In this document: positions 320-23,415 of the stretch, one piece after another
Position numbering within the stretch: position 1 is the stretch's first letter
How the letters are laid out: the number at the start of each line of letters is the position of its first letter
DNA from: a virus
DNA length: 31,169 nt
Strand: one strand, 5' to 3'
Virus record (IMG/VR): IMGVR_UViG_3300005470_000015
Span: 1-31,169 of that record
Notes under the pieces: model-generated
The model's database searches: none
The model's input: only the letters and a program-made list of their open reading frames with translations
Told to the model about the DNA's origin: nothing
Program-made: the position numbers and the translations under genes

Positions 320-1417
320 TTAAGCTGTTAGAGCACCACCAACAAATGATGCAGGACGATAAATAGCAAGTGCAGCACGTAAGTCCGCCTTGACTGTCAT
401 CATGCCTTGCTTGAAGTTGTCGCCATCTGAATCAGACAGGCTAATAGCCACGCCACGACGGTTCCAAACTTGAGCACCCATTGCAAAATCACCTAGCAAG
501 AACTTACCAGAAGTAATAGAGTTTGACTTAACCACATTTAAACCCCAAGGATTTACCGCCATATCGCGACGGAAGTGGCCATCTGAACCTTGATCTAAAT
601 CAAGCGCTTCAACGTCTGCTGGATTTAGAACAATACCATTTGCAAAGTATTCAGATTGCTCTAACAACGTCATAGCTTTACGAATGTTCTCCAGCTTGTT
701 AGAGCTTGCCACAGGTGTAAACACAGTATGATTTCCTGTATTTAATAAGCCTGAGATATTTGCACCCGCACCATTACCCGCTAACAGCTGCATTTCTTTA
801 CGCAATAAAGCAGCATACTGCATACGCCCATCAATATAAGATGCAAGCATTGGTGCATCTTCAATTACTTGCTGAGACACAGGCATTGTGTGACCAATTG
901 TTGCAACCTTAGCCGTTTCTAAAGTGAATGTAATTTCTGATTCACCGTAACTTGTTGCACCTTCTGCTTTTTCTGCAGCGGCACTTGTAAAGGTGTTTTC
1001 ACGCGTGTACTCAACTGAGTTGCTTGATGTCTCACCAGAAGCCAGTAAATCTTCTAAACGGAGAATACGTCCATTAGGACCGACAATACCCGCTTGACGA
1101 TCAGGCGCAACCGTTGCATCTGAACCCGTTACCGCAGCTGCTTGAACTTCAAACGTTGCTTTATTTGCTGAACCACTTGCAAAAGCCTGGAACGCTGCAG
1201 AATTTACAAACTCCATACCCATTGACTGTGCTTCATCAATCTTTAGCTTGCCACCTTCTTTTTGCTCCAAATCCAGGATTTGAGCAGCGATAGTACCAAT
1301 CTTATCCTCTAATCCATCGAGTGCTTGTTTGTTGTTTTCATTACCCGCTTGAATTGCGGCTTTTACTTGCTGGTCAATGTTTGCTAATCCAGCTTCAATT
1401 TGTGCTTTTACATCCAT
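320..1417 (-). CDS. Major capsid protein, HK97 fold
   Basis: A 365-residue protein placed directly after the prohead protease, as in HK97-like phages. Residues 1 to about 60 are charged and helical (MDVKAQIEAGLANIDQQV onward), resembling the delta or scaffolding domain that the protease removes during head maturation. The remainder has features of the HK97 fold, such as the segment around NGRILRLEDLLASGETSSNS and the late AIYRPASFVGGAL strand. The ATG is preceded by GGAGAA. The gene is separated from the protease gene by 3 bp, consistent with co-translation. Many copies would form the icosahedral shell. Assignment rests on sequence character plus gene order. Confidence 0.9.
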   Translation of the reverse strand: MDVKAQIEAGLANIDQQVKAAIQAGNENNKQALDGLEDKIGTIAAQILDLEQKEGGKLKIDEAQSMGMEFVNSAAFQAFASGSANKATFEVQAAAVTGSDATVAPDRQAGIVGPNGRILRLEDLLASGETSSNSVEYTRENTFTSAAAEKAEGATSYGESEITFTLETAKVATIGHTMPVSQQVIEDAPMLASYIDGRMQYAALLRKEMQLLAGNGAGANISGLLNTGNHTVFTPVASSNKLENIRKAMTLLEQSEYFANGIVLNPADVEALDLDQGSDGHFRRDMAVNPWGLNVVKSNSITSGKFLLGDFAMGAQVWNRRGVAISLSDSDGDNFKQGMMTVKADLRAALAIYRPASFVGGALTA

Positions 1418-1420
1418 GAG

Positions 1421-2224
1421 TTATTCTCCAATTGTGAATGTGTTTAATAAGTTGATTGCCGCTTTTGCTGACTCATCATCGACCGCATCTCGCTGAATGA
1501 TTTGCTTAGCAGAAGCCACCAGGACTTTGGCCGCTTCTCTTGAAAACCCACCTGCATCACGCAGAGTGCTTTCTAATTCTTTTAGTGATTTAATTTCACC
1601 AATTTGGTTTTTGGCTGTTTTCTCGGTTAGCGCTTGAGGCACTTGGCCAAAGTGTTTTACAAAGTCTTTTGATAGTGCTGCCACTTTCATTGATTCTGAC
1701 ATTGATGTTGCAAACCCTTGCGCTAATGCTGCTTTAGCATCTAGCCAAGTTTCTGCCGCCATCATGGATTCAATTTCACTTGAATCAATACCAGTTTCAC
1801 GCACATACATATCTACTAGCATTTGCTGAAACTGATCTAAAGTGTCTGCCGCTTTTCGCATCTCTTCTGAATCACCCATGACACCAGACCAGGGATTGTG
1901 AATCATTAAAAAGGTGTCTTCTGGCATAACGCGCTCATCACCCGCCAAAAAGATGACCGATGCCGCACTCGCCGCAATACCTTCAACACGAGTGACCACT
2001 TTGGCGCTGTGATTTTTTAAAGCATTAAACATGGCCACACCATCAAACAGACTGCCACCAGGTGAATGAATACTGACCTCAATTTCTGACACATTGGTTT
2101 GCGCGTTGATCTCTGCTATAAAGTCGGAGGCTGAAACGCCCCACATACCAATCTCGTCATGGATAGCAATCTGCATTTTGTTTTCTGCCAGTGCTTTGAC
2201 TTGGTACCATTTACGATTATTCAT
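1421..2224 (-). CDS. ClpP/S49-type prohead protease
   Basis: A serine protease of the ClpP family, the type many HK97-like phages use to mature the prohead. Seen directly: SIHSPGGSLFDGVAMFNAL (oxyanion-type glycine-rich segment), GIAASAAS carrying the probable catalytic serine near residue 86, and MIHNPWS carrying the probable catalytic histidine near 109. I chose the ATG at 2224 because AGGGG lies six bases upstream; an ATG at 2230 would leave no spacing. The start overlaps the end of the portal gene. The C-terminal 80 residues are helical and may bind the capsid scaffold domain, which is inference. Confidence 0.9.
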   Translation of the reverse strand: MNNRKWYQVKALAENKMQIAIHDEIGMWGVSASDFIAEINAQTNVSEIEVSIHSPGGSLFDGVAMFNALKNHSAKVVTRVEGIAASAASVIFLAGDERVMPEDTFLMIHNPWSGVMGDSEEMRKAADTLDQFQQMLVDMYVRETGIDSSEIESMMAAETWLDAKAALAQGFATSMSESMKVAALSKDFVKHFGQVPQALTEKTAKNQIGEIKSLKELESTLRDAGGFSREAAKVLVASAKQIIQRDAVDDESAKAAINLLNTFTIGE

Positions 2225-3413
2225 TTGCATCCCCTAGCTTTGAAAGTGTTGTCATATTGAGCGGGCTAATTAATTGATCACCACCCACAACAGGCGGTAG
2301 GTTTTCGCGCTTACGCGCTTCGTTAATGGTCATAGTTGGTGAGCCAACCATTTTGCTGTAATACTCTGAACGGCCTGCGGTATCACCACGCAACAAGCCT
2401 TCAAAATTAAACTCTATTTTGTATTTGCGACGGTCTGCCACATTAAACAGTGTGTGTTGCAGCTCTTGTTCCCACCGGGTTAGATATGGACGCAAATTTA
2501 GCTGGTAAAAACCCAACATCATTTGTTCTATACCACTACCCCATGAGGTGGTTTTGGTTGTGTCATTAATGAGAAAACCTGGCACACCAAAGAAGCGGGC
2601 AATGTCCTCTGTTTGAAAGCGGCGGGTTTCTAGCATTTGCATATCTTGCGGATTGATTTGAACTTGCTCGTACTTCATGCCGCCCTCAAGAATCATGAGA
2701 CGGTGGGCGTTTTCATTGCCGCTATTGAGCGAACTAAAATGCTTACGCACCAGACCACGCTGTTCATCTGTCAACACCTTGTCTAGCGTTAATACGCCAC
2801 CAGGCTTACCACCGTTTTGATAGAACTTTGAGCCGTACTCTTCTGCACCCATTGCTAAACCAATTGAGGTTCTGGCATAGGCCAATGGACTTAAACCAAT
2901 TAAGCCATTACCAAACAGCTTTATGTGCAGCATATTTTCTTTGGCAATGACCGCCACATCACGGTCTTGCTCATAGGCATAGATTTGTGAACCATCATCA
3001 AGCAAAGTGGTTTTAACCTGTCTTGCTGGCAACGGATTTAAACCCACCACATCACCCCTGGCATTGCGCTGCAGTTCTGCATACGCATTACCATGCAATA
3101 TTAGGTTTAGCATCATGGTTTCACGAAAAACAACGCTGGTCATATAGCGATTTGGTTTATCATGCAACAAATTATAAATAGGCAAATCTTTTACAACCTT
3201 GCGGCCATCAGGCGTATCAACAAATACATTAAGCGGCAAGCTTGCTACCGTTTCAGAAAGTAAACGAACACATGCCCACACCGCACTGACTTGCAACGCG
3301 GACTCTTCTGTAACAGCCTTTGGTGAACTTACCCCATGTGCTGTTGGGTCTGAGCTTTGCTCACCTGTTGCTTTTTCTGTTGCCTTGCGACCCCAAAACT
3401 TTAGATTCCACAT
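2217..3413 (-). CDS. Portal protein, HK97 gp3 family
   Basis: A 398-residue portal, the dodecameric ring at the head vertex through which DNA is packaged and ejected. Recognisable segments are SALQVSAVWACVRLLSETVASLPL near the N terminus, a KPNRYMTSVVFRETMMLNLILHGNAY-type core, and FFGVPGFLIND with TTSWGSGIEQ near residues 275-295, all typical of this family. It lies between the large terminase and the protease in the canonical order. The gene begins 5 bp after the terminase stop, with a weak ribosome-binding site, suggesting translational coupling. Confidence 0.93.
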   Translation of the reverse strand: MWNLKFWGRKATEKATGEQSSDPTAHGVSSPKAVTEESALQVSAVWACVRLLSETVASLPLNVFVDTPDGRKVVKDLPIYNLLHDKPNRYMTSVVFRETMMLNLILHGNAYAELQRNARGDVVGLNPLPARQVKTTLLDDGSQIYAYEQDRDVAVIAKENMLHIKLFGNGLIGLSPLAYARTSIGLAMGAEEYGSKFYQNGGKPGGVLTLDKVLTDEQRGLVRKHFSSLNSGNENAHRLMILEGGMKYEQVQINPQDMQMLETRRFQTEDIARFFGVPGFLINDTTKTTSWGSGIEQMMLGFYQLNLRPYLTRWEQELQHTLFNVADRRKYKIEFNFEGLLRGDTAGRSEYYSKMVGSPTMTINEARKRENLPPVVGGDQLISPLNMTTLSKLGDANE

Positions 3414-3418
3414 TTGCT

Positions 3419-5110
3419 TTACTCGATTACGATAGGATTATTTAAAAAGTCGTCTAATGATTCTTCTGGCTCAACATTAACCAAAGCACCAAATGCCATG
3501 ATTAACGCCATTGCCGGATCTATCTTTTCTTCGGCTTTTGATTTGTCTGCCTTGATGTTTTCGGCTGGGTCTTTTGTGGCAACGACGTTGCCCATTGCCC
3601 AACTTAAAACGGGGTTGCCGTTGTGCTCTAACTGACCACTTATATAGTTACGCTCCAACTCTTTCATGGCTGGGCTAATGGATTTATAACCCTGCCCCAT
3701 TGAGAGCATATTGATACCGTCATCTAACAGGTCGTTAATGAGTTGGCTTGAGTTCCATCGGTCAAACGCAATGGCTTGAATATTTACCAGGCCTGCTACT
3801 TCGTTTATTGTTTTGCGAATAAAGCTGTAATCTGCCACATTGCCTGGCGTGGTTTCTAAAAATCCACGACTGGCCCAGTGATCGTATGGAACACGCGCTT
3901 GATGCACTCGTTTCATAACGGCATCTTCTGGTAGCCAGTTAATTGAGAACACTCGACGTTTACCATTTGGCAATTCACCCACTAGACCAAGGCTAGTAAT
4001 ATCACCCACGGACGCTAAATCTAACCCACCGTAAACCGTTGTGCATTCGGCCATCTCTTGTAATGAGTAGGCTTGTTCGCACTGGTTCCAGGATTCAATA
4101 TCCACCCAAGACTCGGACACGTTAACGCGCACGTTTAAGTGCTTGGTTAAGAAGTTTGAGCGTTGGCTTGGTATCTCTTTGGCGTGTTTCGCCATGTTGC
4201 GTAAGTAATCAAGTGAGACACTTACCCCAAGATTAGGGTTAGCTTTTCGCCAATTGGCTTCGTCAAAGTAGTCGTCGCCATCGTCAATGGAAAAGATTAC
4301 GGCAAAAAAACTATCATCTTCTACCTGGCCATTGAGCACCGATTCGGCATACGCGTGCAACTGGTCATCTATACCACCGCGAATAAAACCGCTGGTTGTG
4401 ATGTAGGCTAACAACCACTGAGAACGCGCACCAAAAGCGGACTTAATAACATTAACAAGCTCGGCTGTTTTGTGGGCGTGAACTTCATCGACCAAACCCA
4501 TATGCGGGTTCAGTCCGTCTAAGCTATTTGCATCTGCTGAAAGCGGTACGAACTTGCCGGAATTATCATGGTTTAGCATTTCGCCACGGCGAATATCTAA
4601 GCGCTTTTTAAGCTCTCTACTTTGACGCGCCATGTTTTTTGCTTCGTCAAATATCTGTTTTGCCTGATCTCTACGAGTAGCCACAGCGTAAATCTCTGGA
4701 CCGCCCTCACCATCCTTGGTAAGTCCGTAGTTTCCCATGCCAGAAATAATGGTTGTTTTACCGTTCTTACGCGCTACTTTGTTGTAGGCTTCGTTAAATC
4801 TGCGGGTACCGTCGGCCTTTTTCCAACCAAATAGCATGGCAAATAAAAAACACTGCCAACCTTCAAGCACAATTTGCTTACCCGCTAAACTGCCTTTTGA
4901 GTGCTTTAAGAAGCTAAAGAATTGAAAGAAGTGCGCTACCGCAACCTCATCAAACACCAGGCTACGGTCGCCGCCTTTCATTAAATCGTTTAGGTGACGC
5001 TCTACCGCCAACCTTTCATATCTGCCCGTTATAACTTCGACATTGATAACCTCATCAATGTACTGATCCATTGCCTTTAAGCAGTGGAGTGCGTATTGTT
5101 TTGGCTGCAT
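3419..5110 (-). CDS. Terminase large subunit
   Basis: A 563-residue packaging motor with ATPase and nuclease domains. The Walker A-like segment is ARKNGKT at residues 113-119 and the Walker B region is GLVDEVHAH. In the nuclease half, acidic residues are visible in YGGLDLAS, IAFDRWNSSQ and a late KIDPAMALIMAFGA segment. Together with the P27-type small subunit this is the HK97/phiC31-like terminase group. The ATG at 5110 overlaps the last base of the small-subunit stop codon, so the two are translationally coupled. It cuts concatemers and pumps DNA into the prohead through the portal encoded next. Confidence 0.95.
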   Translation of the reverse strand: MQPKQYALHCLKAMDQYIDEVINVEVITGRYERLAVERHLNDLMKGGDRSLVFDEVAVAHFFQFFSFLKHSKGSLAGKQIVLEGWQCFLFAMLFGWKKADGTRRFNEAYNKVARKNGKTTIISGMGNYGLTKDGEGGPEIYAVATRRDQAKQIFDEAKNMARQSRELKKRLDIRRGEMLNHDNSGKFVPLSADANSLDGLNPHMGLVDEVHAHKTAELVNVIKSAFGARSQWLLAYITTSGFIRGGIDDQLHAYAESVLNGQVEDDSFFAVIFSIDDGDDYFDEANWRKANPNLGVSVSLDYLRNMAKHAKEIPSQRSNFLTKHLNVRVNVSESWVDIESWNQCEQAYSLQEMAECTTVYGGLDLASVGDITSLGLVGELPNGKRRVFSINWLPEDAVMKRVHQARVPYDHWASRGFLETTPGNVADYSFIRKTINEVAGLVNIQAIAFDRWNSSQLINDLLDDGINMLSMGQGYKSISPAMKELERNYISGQLEHNGNPVLSWAMGNVVATKDPAENIKADKSKAEEKIDPAMALIMAFGALVNVEPEESLDDFLNNPIVIE

Positions 5111-5556
5111 TAGAAGTCAAAAGAGTCTTGATTCTCTGGCACACCCACTTTTAACTGCAAACGTGCAGGCGGCGTTAAACCTAGTTGCCGTGCAATCTTT
5201 AAGCACTGACCAGTAAGGTCTCGCCAAATAACGTACGCTGGCGACATTTGAATGTAGCCATTTGGCGTGGCCTGGGTCATGCCTTCAATATCCAGTTCTT
5301 TGTCTGCCTGCAACCAACGGGCGTAAGTTTGGCAGTACATCGCTAGAATATCGGCATCAAGTTCATTAATAATTCTGTGTTTGTTGCCCAAGCTTTCTAC
5401 AAGCTCAACCCAATGTTTTTTGGATTCGCCTTTTAAAAAGCGCGGCATTTTTGGCGGAGTAAAAACCGACTGGCTCTCTGACTCCACCTTTTCAGGTGTG
5501 TTTTCTTCAGGGCTAGTTCGGTCAATACGTACCACCTTTGCGGGTGTACTCGACAT
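5110..5556 (-). CDS. Terminase small subunit, P27 family
   Basis: A 148-residue DNA-recognition subunit. The N-terminal 40 residues are low-complexity and charged. The conserved P27-like core runs from PPKMPRFLKGESKKHW through ELDADILAMYCQTYARWLQA to IARQLGLTPPARLQL. The ATG at 5556 has GGAGA upstream. It sits just upstream of the large subunit, with an HNH nuclease gene and a GC-rich cos-like stretch upstream, the arrangement of HNH-associated cos phages. Confidence 0.9.
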   Translation of the reverse strand: MSSTPAKVVRIDRTSPEENTPEKVESESQSVFTPPKMPRFLKGESKKHWVELVESLGNKHRIINELDADILAMYCQTYARWLQADKELDIEGMTQATPNGYIQMSPAYVIWRDLTGQCLKIARQLGLTPPARLQLKVGVPENQDSFDF

Positions 5557-8070: not shown

Positions 8071-8574
8071 TTAAGCCGCCACAAATCGGTCTGAAAGTGC
8101 CATGTATAAAGCTCTATCGCCATCAATAGACCACTGTAAAATTAATTGGAAAATATTTCGCTCTCTCACATCCCAAGTCTTGTAATAGTTTCTACGATTA
8201 ATACCGACCTCACAAGCCTTATCTGCCTTAGCTATTTCAACACCCAACACCAACTGAGAGATAGCGCAACGCGAAACCCTATCCAACTTCAAACGATAAC
8301 TACTTTTCTGCATACTCTCTTTGCAATACCAGTCAAACACCGCTAAGTTTTGCCTAATCGTCTGCAACAACAACATAACCTCTTTTTCATCACCCAGGCC
8401 TGCTCTAACCTCCAAAGCCAATCTATGTCGATTATCTTCAACCATACCCAATGCCGCCGCAACATCACCTGGCTTCAGGCCATCACGACTCGTTGATGCA
8501 CTAGATGAACTCAACCCAACCGCACTCACACGCAACATATTCAAAAAACGCTCTGTTCTCAAGGTAGATTCCAT
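8071..8574 (-). CDS. Unknown protein, candidate late antiterminator (Q-like by position)
   Basis: A 167-residue protein with no motif I can name. It is rich in arginine and helical, and ends with NRRNYYKTWDVRERNIFQLI, which could be a DNA-binding helix-turn-helix. The ATG at 8574 has GAGGTGG upstream and lies one base after the exonuclease stop, so I prefer it to the longer 8607 start. It is the last gene before a promoter/double-terminator leader, exactly where lambdoid phages carry the late regulator Q. The role is therefore inferred from position only. Confidence 0.5.
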   Translation of the reverse strand: MESTLRTERFLNMLRVSAVGLSSSSASTSRDGLKPGDVAAALGMVEDNRHRLALEVRAGLGDEKEVMLLLQTIRQNLAVFDWYCKESMQKSSYRLKLDRVSRCAISQLVLGVEIAKADKACEVGINRRNYYKTWDVRERNIFQLILQWSIDGDRALYMALSDRFVAA

Positions 8575-8575
8575 A

Positions 8576-9145
8576 TCAAGCCACCTCTTTTTGATTAGCC
8601 AATCCAAGCGCCTGCCAAATCTCGCTTACATACCTGGCCTGATGCTTAGCATCATCTAACGCACTATGCTCAACCCCAACAAACTCAATCGTTTTCTTTG
8701 GATCAATGCCATTAGCGCGCCCAATCTCAACCATTGTTCGCACACAACGCTCATTCCAAAATTCCCACGGCAAATCATAATCCATACGCTCAAAGTGATA
8801 CCCAAGCAATGCCAAATCAAACCCAGGTCCATTACCCCAAACCTGCAAATCACCCTTTGGGCATAAACCATTTAGCCAACTCATAAGTTGCAAAATGCCA
8901 GACCTAACCAGCACATCACCATCAAGCTGCTTACGTGCCTCGTCAGATTTACCCTGCCACCACTCAACAGTATCGCAATCCATTTTAAAGCCAAGCTTAC
9001 AACCATCCTCAACAGACAGCAGAACCTCAAAACCCTTATCAGAAACATGCCCTGTTTTTGGATTAAACTGCACCGCCCCAATACTAGCAATAACCGAATC
9101 AACCCCCGTGCCAAGTGCTTCAATATCAATCATTACGTGTGCCAT
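8576..9145 (-). CDS. DnaQ-fold 3'-5' exonuclease
   Basis: A 189-residue exonuclease of the DEDD superfamily. The first acidic motif is MIDIEALGTG (D7, E9), a middle motif lies in WGNGPGFDLALL, and the last is HSALDDAKHQARYV with the His and Asp of a DEDDh-type site. It most resembles the Rv2179c-like phage exonucleases. It lies between the helicase-loader-like gene and the putative antiterminator, in the replication operon. It could act in DNA recombination or in RNA turnover; the sequence does not decide which. Confidence 0.85.
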   Translation of the reverse strand: MAHVMIDIEALGTGVDSVIASIGAVQFNPKTGHVSDKGFEVLLSVEDGCKLGFKMDCDTVEWWQGKSDEARKQLDGDVLVRSGILQLMSWLNGLCPKGDLQVWGNGPGFDLALLGYHFERMDYDLPWEFWNERCVRTMVEIGRANGIDPKKTIEFVGVEHSALDDAKHQARYVSEIWQALGLANQKEVA

Positions 9146-9889
9146 CTATGCCGCTCCGTGTTTTAAGTTTTTTTTCATTTCAGACAAAAATCGATTTCCT
9201 GTCTCTTTTAAATTTTTTCCCAACAAGGCATCAGAATCCGCCTTGCTCAAAGTTTGCTCAAGCGCCAATTGATTTTTCTCAATGCGCTCTCTCACCCACT
9301 TAGGCGGCTCAAACTGAACACCAAACAACATCGCTTTCTTGCACTCATCGTAAAAACGTCTAACCGAATTCATAGAATTCTTTTTGCTCCACATACGCAT
9401 TTCAGCAATGGGCGTACGCTCATTCGCTTTAGCAATAATCCCCCAATAAATCATGTTTGATTTTTCGCTATAACGCCCCATCATCAAATCTTCATACACC
9501 AAATCAAAATCAGGAATACCCAACGCCTCAGCAAACTTACCCTGGCACAACAAGCCAAACTCTGCGCTCGTAGGCGGCCAAGAAGGGTGCGTATCCTTCA
9601 TCTTGTAAAAAGCCTTCTCAACCGCATCGCGTGACGTTTTACCAACATCAATCGCCCAAATGCGTTTAGCTGCAACCACCTCAGCATCAGTACGCCATTG
9701 GCTCATCCACTTACTGCCATAACGTGCCGTCATAGCCTGCCAAATGTACTCAATACCCTCGTTAGAAGTGGTCATCTGTCGATTTGGTTCCGTACTTGAG
9801 ATTGTGCTCTCTAGATTCTGCGTTGATTCGTCTAATGCGCTGAGCCTCTGTCTCACCTGCATAGCCGTTTGATTGATTGCCATTGCCAT
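9146..9889 (-). CDS. Replication protein, lambda P-like (helicase loader)
   Basis: A 247-residue protein resembling phage replication P proteins, which bring the host DnaB helicase to the origin. The conserved-looking part is YGSKWMSQW, then WPPTSAEFGLLCQ near residues 105-117. I chose the ATG at 9889 because AGGAGGTGG lies just upstream. With this start the gene overlaps the O-like gene by about 128 bp in another frame, unusually long; an ATG at 9778 would nearly remove the overlap but has only a weak site (GGAA). Confidence 0.7.
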   Translation of the reverse strand: MAMAINQTAMQVRQRLSALDESTQNLESTISSTEPNRQMTTSNEGIEYIWQAMTARYGSKWMSQWRTDAEVVAAKRIWAIDVGKTSRDAVEKAFYKMKDTHPSWPPTSAEFGLLCQGKFAEALGIPDFDLVYEDLMMGRYSEKSNMIYWGIIAKANERTPIAEMRMWSKKNSMNSVRRFYDECKKAMLFGVQFEPPKWVRERIEKNQLALEQTLSKADSDALLGKNLKETGNRFLSEMKKNLKHGAA

Positions 9890-15412: not shown

Positions 15413-15817
15413 ATGAGCCTAGAACAACTACCACCGACCACCAAGGCGTTTATTGGTTACACGCCATACATTGAGCCAAAGTTTAACTTAATAGCATCCT
15501 ATAAAAACGGCATGTCTGTCGGCAAAATTGCCATTGAATTAGACATTAGCCCGCAAGCCGCGCAAAAAGAGATAGACAAGCTTATTGAGCAAAACATACT
15601 CGCCAAGCGTGAGGCGCCAAAGCACCTTAAAGCACACATAAAAGCCCAGGCCGTGTACATGATGAAGCTTGGAGCAACGCAACAGCAAGCCGTTGAGTGG
15701 TTAAAAAAAGTAGCAAACCATGCACCAGACAAAAGCCTAATAACCAAATGGAAGCATCAAAAAGCTGTAAAAAACGCGCTGCTAAAAATTGAGCAGAAGC
15801 AATCAACCAAACATTAA
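15413..15817 (+). CDS. Unknown protein with a helix-turn-helix
   Basis: A 134-residue protein with AAGGA upstream. Residues 26-55 (SYKNGMSVGKIAIELDISPQ and onward) look like a helix-turn-helix, and the rest is basic and helical (HLKAHIKAQAVYMMKLGATQQQAVEWLKK). It may be a phage regulatory or DNA-binding protein of the early operon. Target unknown. Confidence 0.65.
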   Translation: MSLEQLPPTTKAFIGYTPYIEPKFNLIASYKNGMSVGKIAIELDISPQAAQKEIDKLIEQNILAKREAPKHLKAHIKAQAVYMMKLGATQQQAVEWLKKVANHAPDKSLITKWKHQKAVKNALLKIEQKQSTKH

Positions 15818-15977
15818 CAAAGCAGACCCAAGCAAACCGTGGGGATATAACGGAAGCAGTTAGAGCATGTAATCCTTACTCCTCAAAACTACATGTGATC
15901 TAACCGACCGCCGTAACGAGAGCGGCACAAATTTACCAGGCCTGGTAACAGGCAATAAATTATATGGAGAAAAAATT
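15818..15977 (+). other. Non-coding leader ahead of the MazG-like gene
   Basis: 160 bp without a convincing gene. It contains two possible hairpins (CATGTA at 15865-15870 with a TACATG partner near 15890, and GCCG...CGGC near 15910-15926) and then the palindrome at 15935-15946. This suggests a structured leader, but I recognise no riboswitch or ribozyme family. Confidence 0.35.
15935..15946. promoter_or_regulatory. Palindrome ACCAGGCCTGGT (leader copy 4)
   Basis: A perfect 12-bp palindrome followed by AACAGG, ending 31 bp before the MazG-like start codon. Confidence 0.6.
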
Positions 15978-17659: not shown

Positions 17660-17962
17660 ATGAGTGTAGTAACCGTAAAACAAGCCGAAACCATAACAGG
17701 CAAAGACCGTGCTTATTGGTCAACCGGCAAAGGCAAACGATTTACCGTTAAGGGAGATGATGGTAATCTATGGGTTTGTTTAGCTAAATTTAATGAGCAT
17801 ATTGAACGATTATGGCAAAGTACCCAGGCGTTAGACAAGCCAGCAAAAGCACCATCGAAATCAGCTTCACCTATTGTGGAGAACGTTTTTTCGAAAAAAT
17901 CAAACTCAAGCCCGACCCTAGCGGATTACGTATTGCCGCAAACTTTAGGGCAGAGATTTTAG
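17660..17962 (+). CDS. Candidate excisionase / recombination directionality factor
   Basis: About 100 residues starting at ATG 17660 with GGAG upstream. The first 55 residues (SVVTVKQAETITGKDRAYWS ... DGNLWVCLAKFNEHI) look like a small DNA-binding domain. The C-terminal 40 residues are low-complexity (serine, proline, lysine) and lie in the 151-bp overlap with the integrase gene. In lambda, xis also overlaps the start of int. Function is inferred from size, basic character and position. Confidence 0.5.
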   Translation: MSVVTVKQAETITGKDRAYWSTGKGKRFTVKGDDGNLWVCLAKFNEHIERLWQSTQALDKPAKAPSKSASPIVENVFSKKSNSSPTLADYVLPQTLGQRF

Positions 17963-18939
17963 CCTCAATAGACAAAGGTACGTTTGACTATGCAGTAAGT
18001 TTTCCACAATCTAAACATGCTGCACGCTTCAAAACCAAATCAAACTCAATTAAGAGTTATTTGCAAAACACTTACCTGCCCAGGTTTGAAAAGTACGGCA
18101 AAGCCAGAACAGTTAAAGCCTATCGCAACATCATCAATAATCAATTAATCCCACCGTTTGGCGATTACGAATTGCACGAGCTGACTATAGCCATTGTTAA
18201 GCAATGGGTAGACACTTTAGATATTACTGCAAAATCAATACGCAATATCTTATCCCCCCTAAAATCAGCACTCAATGAAGCTGTTGAAGATGGGCTTATT
18301 GAAACCAATCCCATTGCCACCTACTCCCCAAAAATCAGAAACAATGCACCCAAGCATGACGACATCGACCCTATCACCTACGAAGAAGAACAAGCTTTAA
18401 TCAAAGCCACCAACCCATCATTTGCCAACCTAATACGCTTTGCACTCTGGACAGGACTAAGACCACAAGAATACCTTGCGCTCACCTGGGATGATGTGGA
18501 CCTAATACACGGCACAGTCAATATAAACAAAGCCAAGTCTGACTTTGTAAACGTAGAGATCACTAAAACAAAAACATCAAACCGAAAACTCAAGCTACTT
18601 GCACCGGCACTAGAAGCAATCAAGGCACAAAAAGAACACACTTACCTTGAGCATCAAGAGGTTTTTAAATTTAACGGCAAGCGATACTCTGGCGTATCTC
18701 AACTAAGAAGATTTGAATGGGATAGAGCCTTTAAAAAATCAGGCGTAAGAAGGCGAACACCAAAACAAACCAGACACTCTTTTGCATCAAGAATGTTATC
18801 TGCAGGTGAACCATTGATATGGGTAAGTAAATACCTAGGGCATGCTGATCCATCAATGACATTAAGAGCCTACGCTCGATTTATGCCAGACGAACAACAA
18901 GCGGCGGGAAGCAAAGCAATTGCAAAATCACAGCAATAA
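17812..18939 (+). CDS. int: Tyrosine-recombinase integrase
   Basis: A 375-residue integrase. It starts with the short arm-binding domain typical of many phage integrases (MAKYPGVRQASKSTIEISFT ... FDYAVSFPQSKHAARF), then a core-binding SAM-like domain (about 75-165), then the catalytic domain. Visible catalytic features are R217 in WTGLRPQEYLAL, TRHSFAS, LGHADPSMTLRAY and the nucleophile Tyr354. It is adjacent to a tRNA-derived att site, as expected. The start is supported by the family's usual N terminus although its ribosome-binding site is weak; it overlaps the candidate excisionase by 151 bp. Confidence 0.93.
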   Translation: MAKYPGVRQASKSTIEISFTYCGERFFEKIKLKPDPSGLRIAANFRAEILASIDKGTFDYAVSFPQSKHAARFKTKSNSIKSYLQNTYLPRFEKYGKARTVKAYRNIINNQLIPPFGDYELHELTIAIVKQWVDTLDITAKSIRNILSPLKSALNEAVEDGLIETNPIATYSPKIRNNAPKHDDIDPITYEEEQALIKATNPSFANLIRFALWTGLRPQEYLALTWDDVDLIHGTVNINKAKSDFVNVEITKTKTSNRKLKLLAPALEAIKAQKEHTYLEHQEVFKFNGKRYSGVSQLRRFEWDRAFKKSGVRRRTPKQTRHSFASRMLSAGEPLIWVSKYLGHADPSMTLRAYARFMPDEQQAAGSKAIAKSQQ

Positions 18940-18941
18940 TA

Positions 18942-19138
18942 AATCGCCACAAAATCGCCACACTAATATACATAAACATACATATATCGCCACAATTTAA
19001 ACTGATAAAATAAAGATAAGTTATTGATTTTAAACAAATTGAATGGTCGGAATGACAGGATTTGAACCTATAACCACCTTGTTTAAAATCAATGAGTTAT
19101 AGATAATCGCCACAATAATCACCACATTTTGTGGTGAT
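18942..19138. other. attP: Phage attachment site attP (tRNA-Pro 3' end) with arm sites
   Basis: The core is at 19044-19070: read on the minus strand it is a tRNA 3' end (AGGTTCAAATCC, then TGTCATTCCG and ACCA). The C1-G72-type acceptor fits tRNA-Pro. It is flanked by a perfect 15-bp inverted repeat (19023-19037, 19079-19093). Outside this are direct copies of ATCGCCACA at 18943, 18954, 18986 and 19106 and a variant at 19118, likely integrase arm sites. Only the tRNA 3' part is present, so no tRNA gene is claimed. Confidence 0.85.
19118..19138. terminator. Hairpin between integrase and the convergent gene
   Basis: ATCACCACA, a TTT loop, then TGTGGTGAT: a perfect 9-bp stem. It lies between the ends of two convergent genes, with T-rich sequence following on the plus strand (TTATCTTTTT). 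It may double as an integrase arm site. Confidence 0.5.
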
Positions 19139-19560: not shown

Positions 19561-20004
19561 CTAAAAGAACGCACTGCGCTTAGTCCAAAACCAAGCAGAG
19601 AATGGTAGGATTGTTGCAGGCGTTAGGTGTAATTTGACTTCTTTGTTGATTTCTAAGTTTGCGCTTAACGCATCGTAATCCGCTTGTGACATAGCACCAA
19701 CGGCTACCAAATCTTTAGCGGCATCAAATCCATTTTTAATTTGCATTAGCCCATTGGCCACTTCATTGGTGAAGGGTACGGTAATATCTGTATCAGCATA
19801 AACCTCGCCTGTTTGTTTGGCGATAGATGCTAGTTCTTCTGCGGTTGGTTCTGGCGGCGGTGGCAGATCCTGCCAGCCGCTTAACTCAACTGACTCAGTT
19901 ACTTGTACAAATAGCTCATTGCTAGCAGGCACAATCGCACCAGTTTTTATATCTTTGTAATCAGCTATACACAGTGCTGATCCATCTAGTCTTTTTGCAA
20001 ACAT
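19561..20004 (-). CDS. Unknown tail-associated protein (tail-fibre-assembly-like)
   Basis: A 147-residue protein starting inside the end of the reverse transcriptase gene (19-bp overlap) with AAGGAAGG upstream. The middle has WQDLPPPPEPTAEELASIAK, a pattern frequent in tail-fibre assembly or tail accessory proteins. The first half looks like a small beta domain. It is co-transcribed with the DGR genes, so it may assist or decorate the variable tail protein. The assignment is tentative. Confidence 0.55.
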   Translation of the reverse strand: MFAKRLDGSALCIADYKDIKTGAIVPASNELFVQVTESVELSGWQDLPPPPEPTAEELASIAKQTGEVYADTDITVPFTNEVANGLMQIKNGFDAAKDLVAVGAMSQADYDALSANLEINKEVKLHLTPATILPFSAWFWTKRSAFF

Positions 20005-20987
20005 AGTCCTTCCTTTTTTAAGTAGTTGAGTAAGTTGTGGCTATCCGCCCATTTTGCGTGGCCTGTAAAACTTGCTGAAAATTGTTTTAATGCTACTGCA
20101 TCGCCTGCTTTTTTATAGCGTTGTATTTTTCGTTTAGCTTTTCTCACGCTGTCTTTTCTGAGCAGTTTATGATTATCCCAAATTCGATACCCTAAAAAGT
20201 TCACACCTCGCTCAATAGGCTGTATAGAGCTTTTGCTAAAAAACAGTCTTAACTGGTAATTGCAATACAGCTCTAAAAAATCTCGCACTATCTCTAAATA
20301 AGCGCGTGAGTGGTGCAGAACAACAATGTCGTCCATGTATCTAAAAAACCATTTAACTTTTAAGCTTTGTGCTAAAAAGCGGTCAACCAATGTGCCGTAA
20401 ACATTTGCCCATAGCTGGCTTGTTAAGTTGCCAATTGGCAAGCCGTCACCATGCCGTGGCGTAAATTGCTCTATAAGCCAAAGCGTATGTTTGCAGCTTA
20501 TTTTCTTTTCAATTTGTCGCCATAAAACCGCTCTGTCAATGCTGTAAAAATATTTGCTAAAATCGGTTTTTAATGCAAAAACAGGCCTGCCTGTTTTCTT
20601 TAATTTTCGGATTGTTGCTTGCGTATCAATTGCACCTTTGTGTGATCCTTTGCCTTTTCTGCAGGCGTAGGATTGTGGCAGCATGCCAGCTTCAAAGATT
20701 GGCATTATGATATTAACCAAAGCGTGTTGTACAATCCTATCTTTAAATGGTAATGCAGTAATTGGCCTTGGTTTTGGCTCATAAACCCAAAACTCGCGTG
20801 GCTTACCTGGTTGATACTGTTTGTTTTTAATACTCTCAATTAATGCCTGCAAGTTAGCTGCATAATTTTCTTTAAAATTTAAGTACCCGCTAGACTTTCT
20901 ACGCCCTGCAGATGCTTTTTGATAAGCGAGTCGAAAATTATTGCTATCCAATATATTGTTAATTAAATTGCGATATTTTCGCCCCAT
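19986..20987 (-). CDS. DGR reverse transcriptase
   Basis: A 333-residue reverse transcriptase of the diversity-generating retroelement type. Visible blocks are RPITALPFKDRIVQHAL (74-90), YACRKGKGSHKGAI (107-120), FALKTDFSKYFYSID (137-151, catalytic D142), GLPIGNLTSQLWANVY (182-197), which is characteristic of DGR and group-II-like RTs, and the YMDD box (217-220). It lies about 150 bp downstream of the template repeat and is preceded by AAGGA. It copies the template RNA into cDNA with errors at adenines, and the cDNA then replaces the variable repeat in the tail gene. There is no fused maturase or nuclease domain, as expected. Confidence 0.96.
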   Translation of the reverse strand: MGRKYRNLINNILDSNNFRLAYQKASAGRRKSSGYLNFKENYAANLQALIESIKNKQYQPGKPREFWVYEPKPRPITALPFKDRIVQHALVNIIMPIFEAGMLPQSYACRKGKGSHKGAIDTQATIRKLKKTGRPVFALKTDFSKYFYSIDRAVLWRQIEKKISCKHTLWLIEQFTPRHGDGLPIGNLTSQLWANVYGTLVDRFLAQSLKVKWFFRYMDDIVVLHHSRAYLEIVRDFLELYCNYQLRLFFSKSSIQPIERGVNFLGYRIWDNHKLLRKDSVRKAKRKIQRYKKAGDAVALKQFSASFTGHAKWADSHNLLNYLKKEGLCLQKD

Positions 20988-21132
20988 AAAATTCCTTAAT
21001 GTTGTGCGCGAGTTTCGATATTTCGCTACTCCTCGCTATCACAAACCGCTAAATGTATTCCCCAAAGGAGGTACAGCATGGCTGACCACAAGTGGTACGC
21101 TTAGATATCCTTAGATAATCTAACGCATTGTC

Positions 21133-21253
21133 GTCACAGACGGCGCGAGACCCGATGTTGTTGTTCGAGTTGCTAGGGGCGTTGTTCCAGTTCGACGCGC
21201 GAGAACCCGCGTTCGCACCATTGCTCCAATTGGCACCGAGTAGCACGGCCGTG
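21133..21253 (-). repeat. DGR template repeat (TR)
   Basis: A 121-bp sequence that matches the variable repeat at 21654-21774 except at 9 positions, every one an adenine in the sense (minus) strand of this copy. It holds 26 adenines, largely in AAC/AAT codons, as in known DGR templates. It lies 19 bp after the Avd stop and upstream of the RT. A 70-codon frame runs through it (start 21261) but is best explained by its similarity to the coding VR. Confidence 0.95.
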
Positions 21254-21272
21254 TTATCCATGTTGCACCCTG

Positions 21273-21617
21273 CTAACGCCTAGATTTTTTAATCCAAGCA
21301 TTTAGCATGCTCCCAACTTCAGCAAGCATAACCATGGCGGCTGTGTGCTGATCGTTAGTAATTAGTCTAGTGCGATGACTGACAGCAAACCTTAATAGCC
21401 ACCTCACTTCTGCAAGCGATGCGTCTATAACGTGCAGCTTGCTGATTTGATTGATTTTGGCAGCCAAGTAAAACTCACCTGGCAATCTCAGTAACGCACT
21501 TAAAAATTTGTCTCTAAACTGGCCATGTCGCTTGGGTATGCCTTGTATTTTTGGATAAATAAAATCCATAAAAACATCATACTTTTCAACAATCGCTAAA
21601 ATCTCAATCCTACTCAT
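21273..21617 (-). CDS. avd: DGR accessory variability determinant (Avd)
   Basis: A 114-residue helical protein of the four-helix-bundle Avd type: EILAIVEKYDVFMDFIYPKI, then KRHGQFRDKFLSALLRLPGE and RWLLRFAVSHRTRLITNDQH, basic overall. Avd forms a pentameric barrel that binds the reverse transcriptase and template RNA and is required for cDNA synthesis in the Bordetella phage DGR. It lies between the target gene and TR, the same order as in that phage. Confidence 0.9.
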   Translation of the reverse strand: MSRIEILAIVEKYDVFMDFIYPKIQGIPKRHGQFRDKFLSALLRLPGEFYLAAKINQISKLHVIDASLAEVRWLLRFAVSHRTRLITNDQHTAAMVMLAEVGSMLNAWIKKSRR

Positions 21618-21632
21618 CGTGTCGCTGTCGCT

Positions 21633-21654
21633 CCACTAATCAAGTATCAAGTGG
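21633..21654 (-). other. Hairpin straddling the target-gene stop codon
   Basis: CCACT (21633-21637) and AGTGG (21650-21654) can pair around a loop that includes the stop codon and an ACTTGAT direct repeat. DGR target genes often carry a small hairpin just downstream of VR that aids homing. This stem is short, so the assignment is weak. Confidence 0.4.
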
Positions 21655-22925
21655 TCACAGACGGCGCGAGACCCGAGGCCGTTGTTCGAGCTGCTAGGGG
21701 CGTTGTTCCAGTACGACGCGCGAGAACCCGCGTTCGCACCACCGCTCCAACTGGCACCGAGCAGCACGGCCGTGCAGCCGCTATGATAAACTGAGCCGCG
21801 GCCATCAGTAATCGCAGCCCATCCTCCGCCTGTATTGCCTTGTATATCAGCTCCCCATTGCCACATGCACCCAGTCGCTTGCTCTACACCGCATGCACTG
21901 CGATAGCCCGCTTGGTATTTCGTGGTTACTGGGTCAGTGCCACATGATTGTTGTTCCACAACGCCGTAAGCTAGAGAGTAAAACTCGAATGTAGTTGGCA
22001 ATCTTTTTCCAGCAGAAGCTGCTAAATCTATTGCTTCATACTGCGAAAATCTGGTATATGTCGCTGTTCCATCACCGCCAAATATCAGTGGTATTTTCGG
22101 CAAGCTTGCGCCATCTGCAATAGTCACATCACCTCGAGAGTACCCATTGATACCGTACTCAGTATCCATCATGTATTCGTCTGACCAAATGCTCTTATCA
22201 ATAGACAGCGTCATCCCACGAGGTGAGCAAGTTGGTCGCCACTTTAAATCCCAAATTGAGCTTGGGTTGATTGTGCCTGTTGTGTGGTAAACATGGAACC
22301 CACCAACCTCAATCGAGTTAGCGGGTGCGGCTGTATCAAACAATTGTGCAGATAACGAGCCATCATTTAACACATAGACTTTATAATCACTAGCGCTAAC
22401 AAGGCCTGGTAACGTTACTGCCGTACCAATTGCAATGCTTAAAATCGTACCGTTAACATTGACCACAATATCTTGATTAAGTGTTAATGCCGAACCAGTT
22501 GTGTTAAACATTACTTGATTGCTGTTTGATTTTTTGAGAGTTGCTGTTGCAAGGCTAAACAAAGCATCTGCTTGTGCTTTATCGTAAGCCTCATTTGGCA
22601 AGCCACTGCCTATGGCGTGCAATATATTGTTTGCATTTACACTCGCCGCACTTGCTGACGCTTCGCCTGCTTGAGTTGTGGCTGTGCTTGCGGCATCTTG
22701 TGCTGCTTGTTTGTTTGTTGCTGTTTCATCAGCATTTTGCTGTGTTGTTAAGATGTCAATTTCTGCCTGACTTAAATATCCATCTAACTGGTTGGCGTAC
22801 CAATATCGAGTATATACCACGCTTAAATCTCTAAGCGTAACGGTATCTTCTGTACTGATCATCCATACTGAAAAGTCTTCTGCATCTTGTTTAACTTTGT
22901 CAAATGTTTCTGAAATCGTGCTCAC
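21636..22925 (-). CDS. DGR target: tail receptor-binding protein with lectin-fold C terminus
   Basis: About 429 residues. I chose the GTG at 22925, with GGAG six bases upstream, over an upstream TTG. Residues 1-120 are a tail-attachment and coiled region (TNKQAAQDAASTATTQAGEA). A beta-rich middle follows. The C-terminal ~180 residues look like the formylglycine-enzyme/C-type-lectin fold used by DGR targets (KRLPTTFEFYSLAYGV, then CMWQWGADIQGN and SVYHSGC). VR encodes the last ~45 residues (from AVLLGASWSGG to SRAVCDHLILD). The variable residues are on the ligand-binding face of this fold, so the protein probably contacts the host receptor. Confidence 0.92.
   Translation of the reverse strand: MSTISETFDKVKQDAEDFSVWMISTEDTVTLRDLSVVYTRYWYANQLDGYLSQAEIDILTTQQNADETATNKQAAQDAASTATTQAGEASASAASVNANNILHAIGSGLPNEAYDKAQADALFSLATATLKKSNSNQVMFNTTGSALTLNQDIVVNVNGTILSIAIGTAVTLPGLVSASDYKVYVLNDGSLSAQLFDTAAPANSIEVGGFHVYHTTGTINPSSIWDLKWRPTCSPRGMTLSIDKSIWSDEYMMDTEYGINGYSRGDVTIADGASLPKIPLIFGGDGTATYTRFSQYEAIDLAASAGKRLPTTFEFYSLAYGVVEQQSCGTDPVTTKYQAGYRSACGVEQATGCMWQWGADIQGNTGGGWAAITDGRGSVYHSGCTAVLLGASWSGGANAGSRASYWNNAPSSSNNGLGSRAVCDHLILD
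21654..21774 (-). repeat. DGR variable repeat (VR)
   Basis: The 3' end of the target gene. Relative to TR the codon changes are CTA to CTG (silent), AAT to AGT, AAT to GGT, AAC to TAC, AAC to AGC, AAC to GGC and ATC to CTC, giving N-S, N-G, N-Y, N-S, N-G and I-L. All nine base changes fall at template adenines. The GC-rich 3' end (GGTCTCGCGCCGTCTGTGAC) is unchanged and is where the initiation-of-homing element should lie. Confidence 0.95.
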
Positions 22926-22926
22926 T

Positions 22927-23415
22927 TTACACTCCAACTAATGGTGATAATGGGTTGATTGTTTCGGCATTTTGTATATCGGTAAGGCCGTATAAATAAA
23001 ACACCTCAATGTACTCAGCCGTTAAGTCTGGATCATCTGCTATAACGTTTGTTTTTTGTAACTCTAAAATCATGGCCACGTGATATAGACTTTCTCCACC
23101 ACTAACCTTGCTTGTGAGCTGTGCTGTTACAGATCCTTCTACAATTCGACATTCTGTCTGTCTATAACCCTCACCTGTTTCTATATTTACCAAAAACCAA
23201 TCCCATGCAGATTTGAGCAAAAACACTTCAAAAACTTGCATTTGCGACGCAGTTAATTTTTGGCTCACATTGAGACGAGTGCGCTGATTGGCTGCACGTC
23301 TCTGTCTTGCGTTTCCATTTTGGAACTGGGTTCGCTTAATGCCTGCATTAAGCTGATAAGCGTAACCGTCCTGCAAAAACGACCCCAAAACAGCTGGATA
23401 TTCGATTACTGCCAT
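22927..23415 (-). CDS. Minor tail protein
   Basis: A 162-residue tail protein between the tail-tip protein and the DGR target. The segment QNGNARQRRAANQRTRL followed by FEVFLLKSAWDWFLVNIETG is of a type found in phages whose tail tip is built from such small domains. The last codons overlap the region just before the target gene. Predicted to link tip and receptor-binding protein; this is inferred from position. Confidence 0.65.
   Translation of the reverse strand: MAVIEYPAVLGSFLQDGYAYQLNAGIKRTQFQNGNARQRRAANQRTRLNVSQKLTASQMQVFEVFLLKSAWDWFLVNIETGEGYRQTECRIVEGSVTAQLTSKVSGGESLYHVAMILELQKTNVIADDPDLTAEYIEVFYLYGLTDIQNAETINPLSPLVGV

Follow-up and report, generated by a model that had tools for sequence, protein, structure and literature searches.

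A BPP-1-type diversity-generating retroelement with a variant post-repeat hairpin in a temperate, siphophage-like virus genome

The IMG/VR virus record IMGVR_UViG_3300005470_000015, whose positions 1 to 31,169 constitute the 31,169-nucleotide stretch of DNA analyzed here ("the window"), carries on its minus strand what is almost certainly an ordinary and complete diversity-generating retroelement (DGR) of the kind known from Bordetella phage BPP-1, in a temperate, siphophage-like genome, with a variant form of hairpin that probably does the work of the BPP-1 stem. The anatomy of the cassette, the homology of its parts, the pattern of differences between its template repeat (TR) and variable repeat (VR), and the concentration at adenine sites of VR divergence in near-identical pairs of sister cassettes are all directly observed. 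The element is probably active in this phage, and the variable protein that it serves probably binds a receptor.

The cassette and its repeats

The initial annotation had proposed a DGR with every core part present, in the BPP-1 order of target gene with VR, avd, TR and reverse transcriptase (RT). That description holds in each particular: all of these parts lie on the minus strand in the stated order, all of the open reading frames (ORFs) are intact, and the RT has both its YMDD box and its GLPIGNLTSQ block (Table 1). To it are now added a structured RNA between TR and RT and a hairpin just after the VR. (A technical note: GTG at 22925 is taken as the start of the target gene in preference to the TTG at 22937 chosen by the ORF finder, because GGAG precedes the GTG.)

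Table 1. Features of the DGR cassette and of the neighboring integration module (window coordinates)
Feature	Position	Strand	Evidence
Target gene, Mtd-like, putatively receptor-binding tail protein	21636..22925	-	PDB, PHROG and AlphaFold matches
VR, final target codons, with IMH (initiation of mutagenic homing) at 3' end	21651..21774	-	114/124 identity to TR
Post-VR hairpin, tandem G-A type	21619..21636	-	lies between target stop and avd start
avd, accessory variability determinant, 114 aa, helical	21273..21617	-	DivGenRetAVD, bAvd, PDB
TR with IMH*	21130..21253	-	repeat comparison with VR
Structured spacer RNA 3' of TR, Rfam RF03022 Phage_DGR	21001..21126	-	84.3 bits
DGR reverse transcriptase, 333 aa, YMDD and GLPIGNLTSQ	19986..20987	-	8ub7_A match, tree
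Tyrosine integrase	17812..18939	+	Pfam Phage_integrase E 1e-20, Arm-DNA-bind_2; PHROG 1 E 1e-61
Probable phage attachment site (attP) core, tRNA-Pro-like 3' end, flanked by ATCGCCACAA repeats	19044..19068	-	sequence

Brt of BPP-1 shares 51% identity with the RT, whose matches include the solved structure of the BPP-1 enzyme (8ub7 chain A; E 6e-100) and PHROG 1423 (E 4e-109). Avd scores 87.5 bits against NCBIfam DivGenRetAVD (cut-off 80) and also matches Pfam bAvd (E 5e-21) and the solved BPP-1 Avd (PDB 4dwl and 8ub7_B; E about 1e-20). The target matches five solved Mtd variants in PDB (E 9e-55 to 2e-52) and the tail proteins of PHROG 11262 (E 1e-106): a helical N-terminal part of ~130 residues is followed by the Mtd domains and, at the end, by the C-type-lectin/FGE-like (formylglycine-generating enzyme-like) fold in which the VR lies. 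A lectin-fold target had already been anticipated from the sequence. The AlphaFold model of the target matches Mtd 1yu2 (E 5e-26; TM-score, by target length, 0.71), with the proviso that the model has a mean pLDDT (predicted local distance difference test) of 63 and is good chiefly in its middle. The spacer RNA is a full-length Rfam match, well over the gathering score of 50, and occupies the position that it has in BPP-1.

The two repeats differ at 10 sites, 9 of which are adenines in the TR, where adenine makes up 27 of the 124 bases (hypergeometric P = 2.8e-6). The tenth difference, G to C, falls in the IMH end, and outside that end the differences at TR adenines are 9 of 9. The expected asymmetry of IMH and IMH* is also present: the 3' ends of TR and VR share GTCTGTGAC, followed by the G to C change and divergence. 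All but one of the 27 TR adenines occupy codon position 1 or 2; 16 codons have such an adenine, and none of them can be converted to a stop by changing A. No second VR is found within the window. (Elsewhere, a Mesorhizobium DGR, our locus L020, has two VRs, at 8108-8227 and 9075-9194, served by one TR.)

With its Mtd-type target, target-avd-TR-RT order and Phage_DGR spacer RNA, the cassette belongs to the BPP-1 type, of which it is a new member. The likeness extends to strand, TR/VR length, spacer RNA family, the identity of Avd (42%) and of the Mtd target (37%), and the place and GRNA loop of the post-VR hairpin; 12 of the 13 variable codons of BPP-1 Mtd are, by alignment, also variable here. 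The differences are that the tail module of the window carries siphophage-type genes, that the N-terminal part of the target is not that of BPP-1, and that the hairpin stem consists of 3 bp, a tandem G-A and 2 bp, whereas that of BPP-1 consists of 8 perfect GC pairs. To judge from homology, a single transcript would carry both TR and spacer RNA, and the RT with its Avd ring would copy the TR to cDNA, placing random bases opposite adenines. The cDNA would replace the VR, guided by the shared IMH end and by the DNA hairpin just after the VR; the lectin-fold tip of the tail protein would thus be re-randomized at up to 16 codons, the TR staying intact.

A hairpin with tandem G-A pairs

A hairpin that follows the VR is needed for efficient homing of the BPP-1 DGR: the sequence of its stem can be swapped, its structure cannot, and changes of the loop abolished homing; other phage DGRs carry GC-rich stems of 7-10 bp with a GRNA loop (Guo 2011; PMC3240598). 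Its mode of action is not yet settled (PMC12875486). A search for perfect-stem hairpins succeeds in BPP-1 and many relatives and gives nothing convincing after the VR of the window or of its closest relatives. That failure led to a different form in the corresponding position. The window version reads GTG-GA-GC-[GACA]-GC-GA-CAC (21636..21619): an outer stem of 3 bp, a tandem G·A/A·G, two G-C pairs and a 4-nt GRNA loop. Its place after the VR, its 7-position stem and its 4-nt GRNA loop are those of the published hairpin/cruciform (PMC3240598); loop and length conform to the canonical DGR hairpin, and the perfect GC-rich stem of free sequence is replaced by one with an invariant core containing the tandem G-A.

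How general is this form? Three sets of observations bear on the question. 1) A search pattern made up of outer stem, GA, inner pairs, GRNA, inner pairs, GA and outer stem detects the tandem-GA form in 14 of the 58 distinct stretches compared after the VR, where shuffled sequences would give 0.015; the perfect-stem form is present in 27 of the 58, and none has both. Of the 15 imperfect 2x2 cases of the hairpin design, 14 have GA/GA as their internal loop, always with GC/GC as the inner pairs, though the search did not demand GC/GC. (The set behind these counts, 14/58 and 14/15, was not chosen by the 18-mer.) 2) Among 22 distinct elements, the outer pairs vary on both sides (18 cells) and covary, with a score of 0.481 against 0.131 in shuffles, with 0 of 500 shuffles as high and at most 0.109 in slid controls. 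The inner part, GAGC-GRNA-GCGA, is invariant in these 22 elements, which come partly from a motif search that in part imposes this invariance. 3) Tandem-GA and perfect-stem types call for at least 5 changes on the RT tree; the locus nearest to BPP-1 in that tree (L092) has the tandem-GA type, and so does one whose RT is only 35% identical (L185; hairpin 17 nt after the VR). By eye, three other loci (L002, L018 and L017) resemble further variants of the design.

DNA steps of the form 5'-GA-3'/3'-AG-5' make sheared, stable G-A pairs. Those of the window hairpin are probably sheared and stable as well, and the variant probably stands in for the BPP-1 hairpin with its perfect stem. We consider it somewhat more probable than the contrary that these elements represent a structural class of their own, the second, among hairpins at DGR target sites. 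In this class a sheared tandem G-A would be set on a GRNA loop and two G-C pairs that do not vary, with the outer 3-4 bp free, and Mtd-type DGRs would have acquired or exchanged it several times. If so, recognition by the retrohoming machinery or by a host nuclease would be of a loop-proximal shape (perhaps sequence), not merely of a stable stem. The accessible literature contains no description of a tandem-GA hairpin; many subscription papers could not be searched, and priority is not established.

Could the 18-nt element instead be a direct repeat (AGCGAN AGCGA), the ribosome-binding region of avd, or simply target coding sequence? There are grounds for asking: AGCGA does occur in it twice in succession, GGAG lies upstream of the avd ATG, and in most relatives the element encodes the final residues of the target, AER-stop. 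Several observations speak against these readings. Position 2 of the loop varies between A and G while its partner in the repeat stays A, as GRNA predicts, and the outer pairs change on both sides. The GGAG is about 13 nt from the avd ATG, and perfect-stem relatives lack GGAG in the region of the avd start. In the window and in L045 and L015 the target stop precedes the element or falls at its first base, so that coding does not explain it. An origin of the element in repeat, ribosome binding or coding is judged unlikely, though it is the best placed of the alternatives. The 18-mer itself has 41 matches in IMG/VR, 29 of them without DGR proteins; several of these 29 are one recurring, unrelated coding stretch and were treated as chance.

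Certain observations weigh against the reading of the cassette given at the outset: 1) the nearest-neighbor DNA folding energy of the window hairpin is -1.5 kcal/mol, against -11.4 for BPP-1; 2) the hairpin is absent from the centroid fold of the region; 3) many of the 14 tandem-GA hairpins come from one clade; and 4) IMG/VR, GTDB species genomes and phage records yielded no near-identical cassette, the closest RT being 69% identical. Folding energy alone does not support the hairpin; covariation does.

Diversification, silencing and the lineage of the reverse transcriptase

What the cassette of the window lacks in close relatives can be sought in pairs of near-identical sister cassettes elsewhere among its relatives. 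Their differences concentrate in the VR at TR-adenine sites, the TR being unchanged or nearly so, even though those sites make up only 22-31 of about 3,000 compared bases. In the pair L005/L065, 13 of 31 TR-adenine sites differ, against a single difference in the other 2,989 bases. The corresponding share of all differences is 12 of 20 in L010/L011, 15 of 19 in L062/L063, 19 of 27 in L083/L086 and 8 of 15 in L105/L107. Invariance of the VR across related phages would have counted against the initial annotation; the VR is not invariant, as shown for sister cassettes, no near-identical relative of the window's own cassette having been found.

A complete but inactive cassette, recently silenced and with its VR a frozen variant, is also unlikely. 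Only 9 of the 27 TR adenines differ in the VR, and deletion fossils do exist among the relatives (Marinomonas phage P12026 and the IMG/VR locus L173, below). Against silencing stand the intact ORFs, the catalytic YMDD, an Avd above its cut-off, the full-length Phage_DGR RNA, and the restriction of VR differences outside the IMH end to TR adenines, with no other decay.

In the cultured phage P12026 (L014) an Mtd-like gene, 60% identical to the window target over residues 132-432 and with the same downstream gene start, has behind it the hairpin with a single change (GTGGAGCGACAGCGAAAC) and an unannotated stretch matching avd residues 7-50 (together at 15703-15900), avd being cut after about codon 50; directly after these comes a homologue of the gene that lies 3' of the window RT. 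No RT match was found in the P12026 genome and the TR is also missing; the other structural genes are weakly similar to those of the window or were not detected. (The gene in question, at 19561-20004 in the window, overlaps the RT stop; its product is without a family match and is possibly tail-related.) In L173 (1300-1650) target and intact hairpin are followed by an avd start that runs into RT codons 272-326, the TR and most of the RT having been lost. The Synechococcus phages S-CBS3 (L193, hairpin at about 3430-3455) and S-CBS1 (L194, hairpin at about 3395-3420), of similar genome size to the window and with an annotated mtd, differ from it in having no RT beside that gene; the canonical hairpin GGCGC-GACA-GCGCC is kept after mtd. 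These loci look like DGRs removed by internal deletions that left the last tail variant in place.

In a tree of 99 RTs that included BPP-1 and a group II outgroup (built rapidly; some branches distant from the window are long), the window RT falls in a 15-row clade (SH-aLRT, the Shimodaira-Hasegawa-like approximate likelihood ratio test, 99) together with Methyloprofundus, Lysobacteraceae and Halomonadaceae contigs and IMG/VR elements. This clade is nested in a larger one that holds BPP-1 Brt and is separate from the group II intron RTs, which places the enzyme among DGR RTs, as had been anticipated. That the RT is instead of the group II intron or some other class, with TR and VR an unrelated repeat, is extremely improbable: the best NCBIfam matches of the RT are to group II and DRT (defense-associated RT) models, all of them far below cut-off, and the idea is refuted by the tree and by the rest of the cassette (the PHROG 1423 and 8ub7_A matches, Avd, the Phage_DGR RNA and the adenine-specific TR/VR differences).

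The phage and its implications

The phage had been proposed to be a temperate siphophage, and its gene content supports a temperate life style and a long, non-contractile tail: the siphophage-type set comprises large terminase, portal, head protease, major head protein, tape measure, major tail protein and connector proteins, to which are added the integrase and the probable attP. Integrase and tRNA-Pro-like 3' end together suggest that attP lies close to the DGR. Near matches to the attP core in the hosts of relatives are tRNA-Pro 3' ends, and the prophage site may be a tRNA-Pro gene ending in GGTTCAAATCCTGTCATTCCGACCA; the exact core has no match in 369 sampled genomes of one class. The window has 10 matches to the ATCGCCACAA repeats, which may be integrase arm sites, where 2.4 would be expected; five of these matches cluster at 18943-19138. 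There is no near DNA match to any isolated phage. P12026, the closest tail-protein relative, gives only a hint of a marine gammaproteobacterial host. Window positions 422-5446 are 100% identical over 5,025 bases to IMG/VR contig 3300001737_000053 (L137), a fragment without a DGR, and this identity indicates the same phage assembled in another record.

With this cassette the Mtd-type DGRs gain a siphophage-type genome, and variable positions prove to be kept residue for residue at 37% identity of the target. The fossils suggest that phages can freeze a diversified tail tip through loss of the machinery that diversified it. Searches for perfect inverted repeats will miss target sites of the tandem-GA form. 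Natural hairpins of one class, their mismatch-containing inner stem unvarying, would serve as ready-made substrates for testing how the hairpin works.

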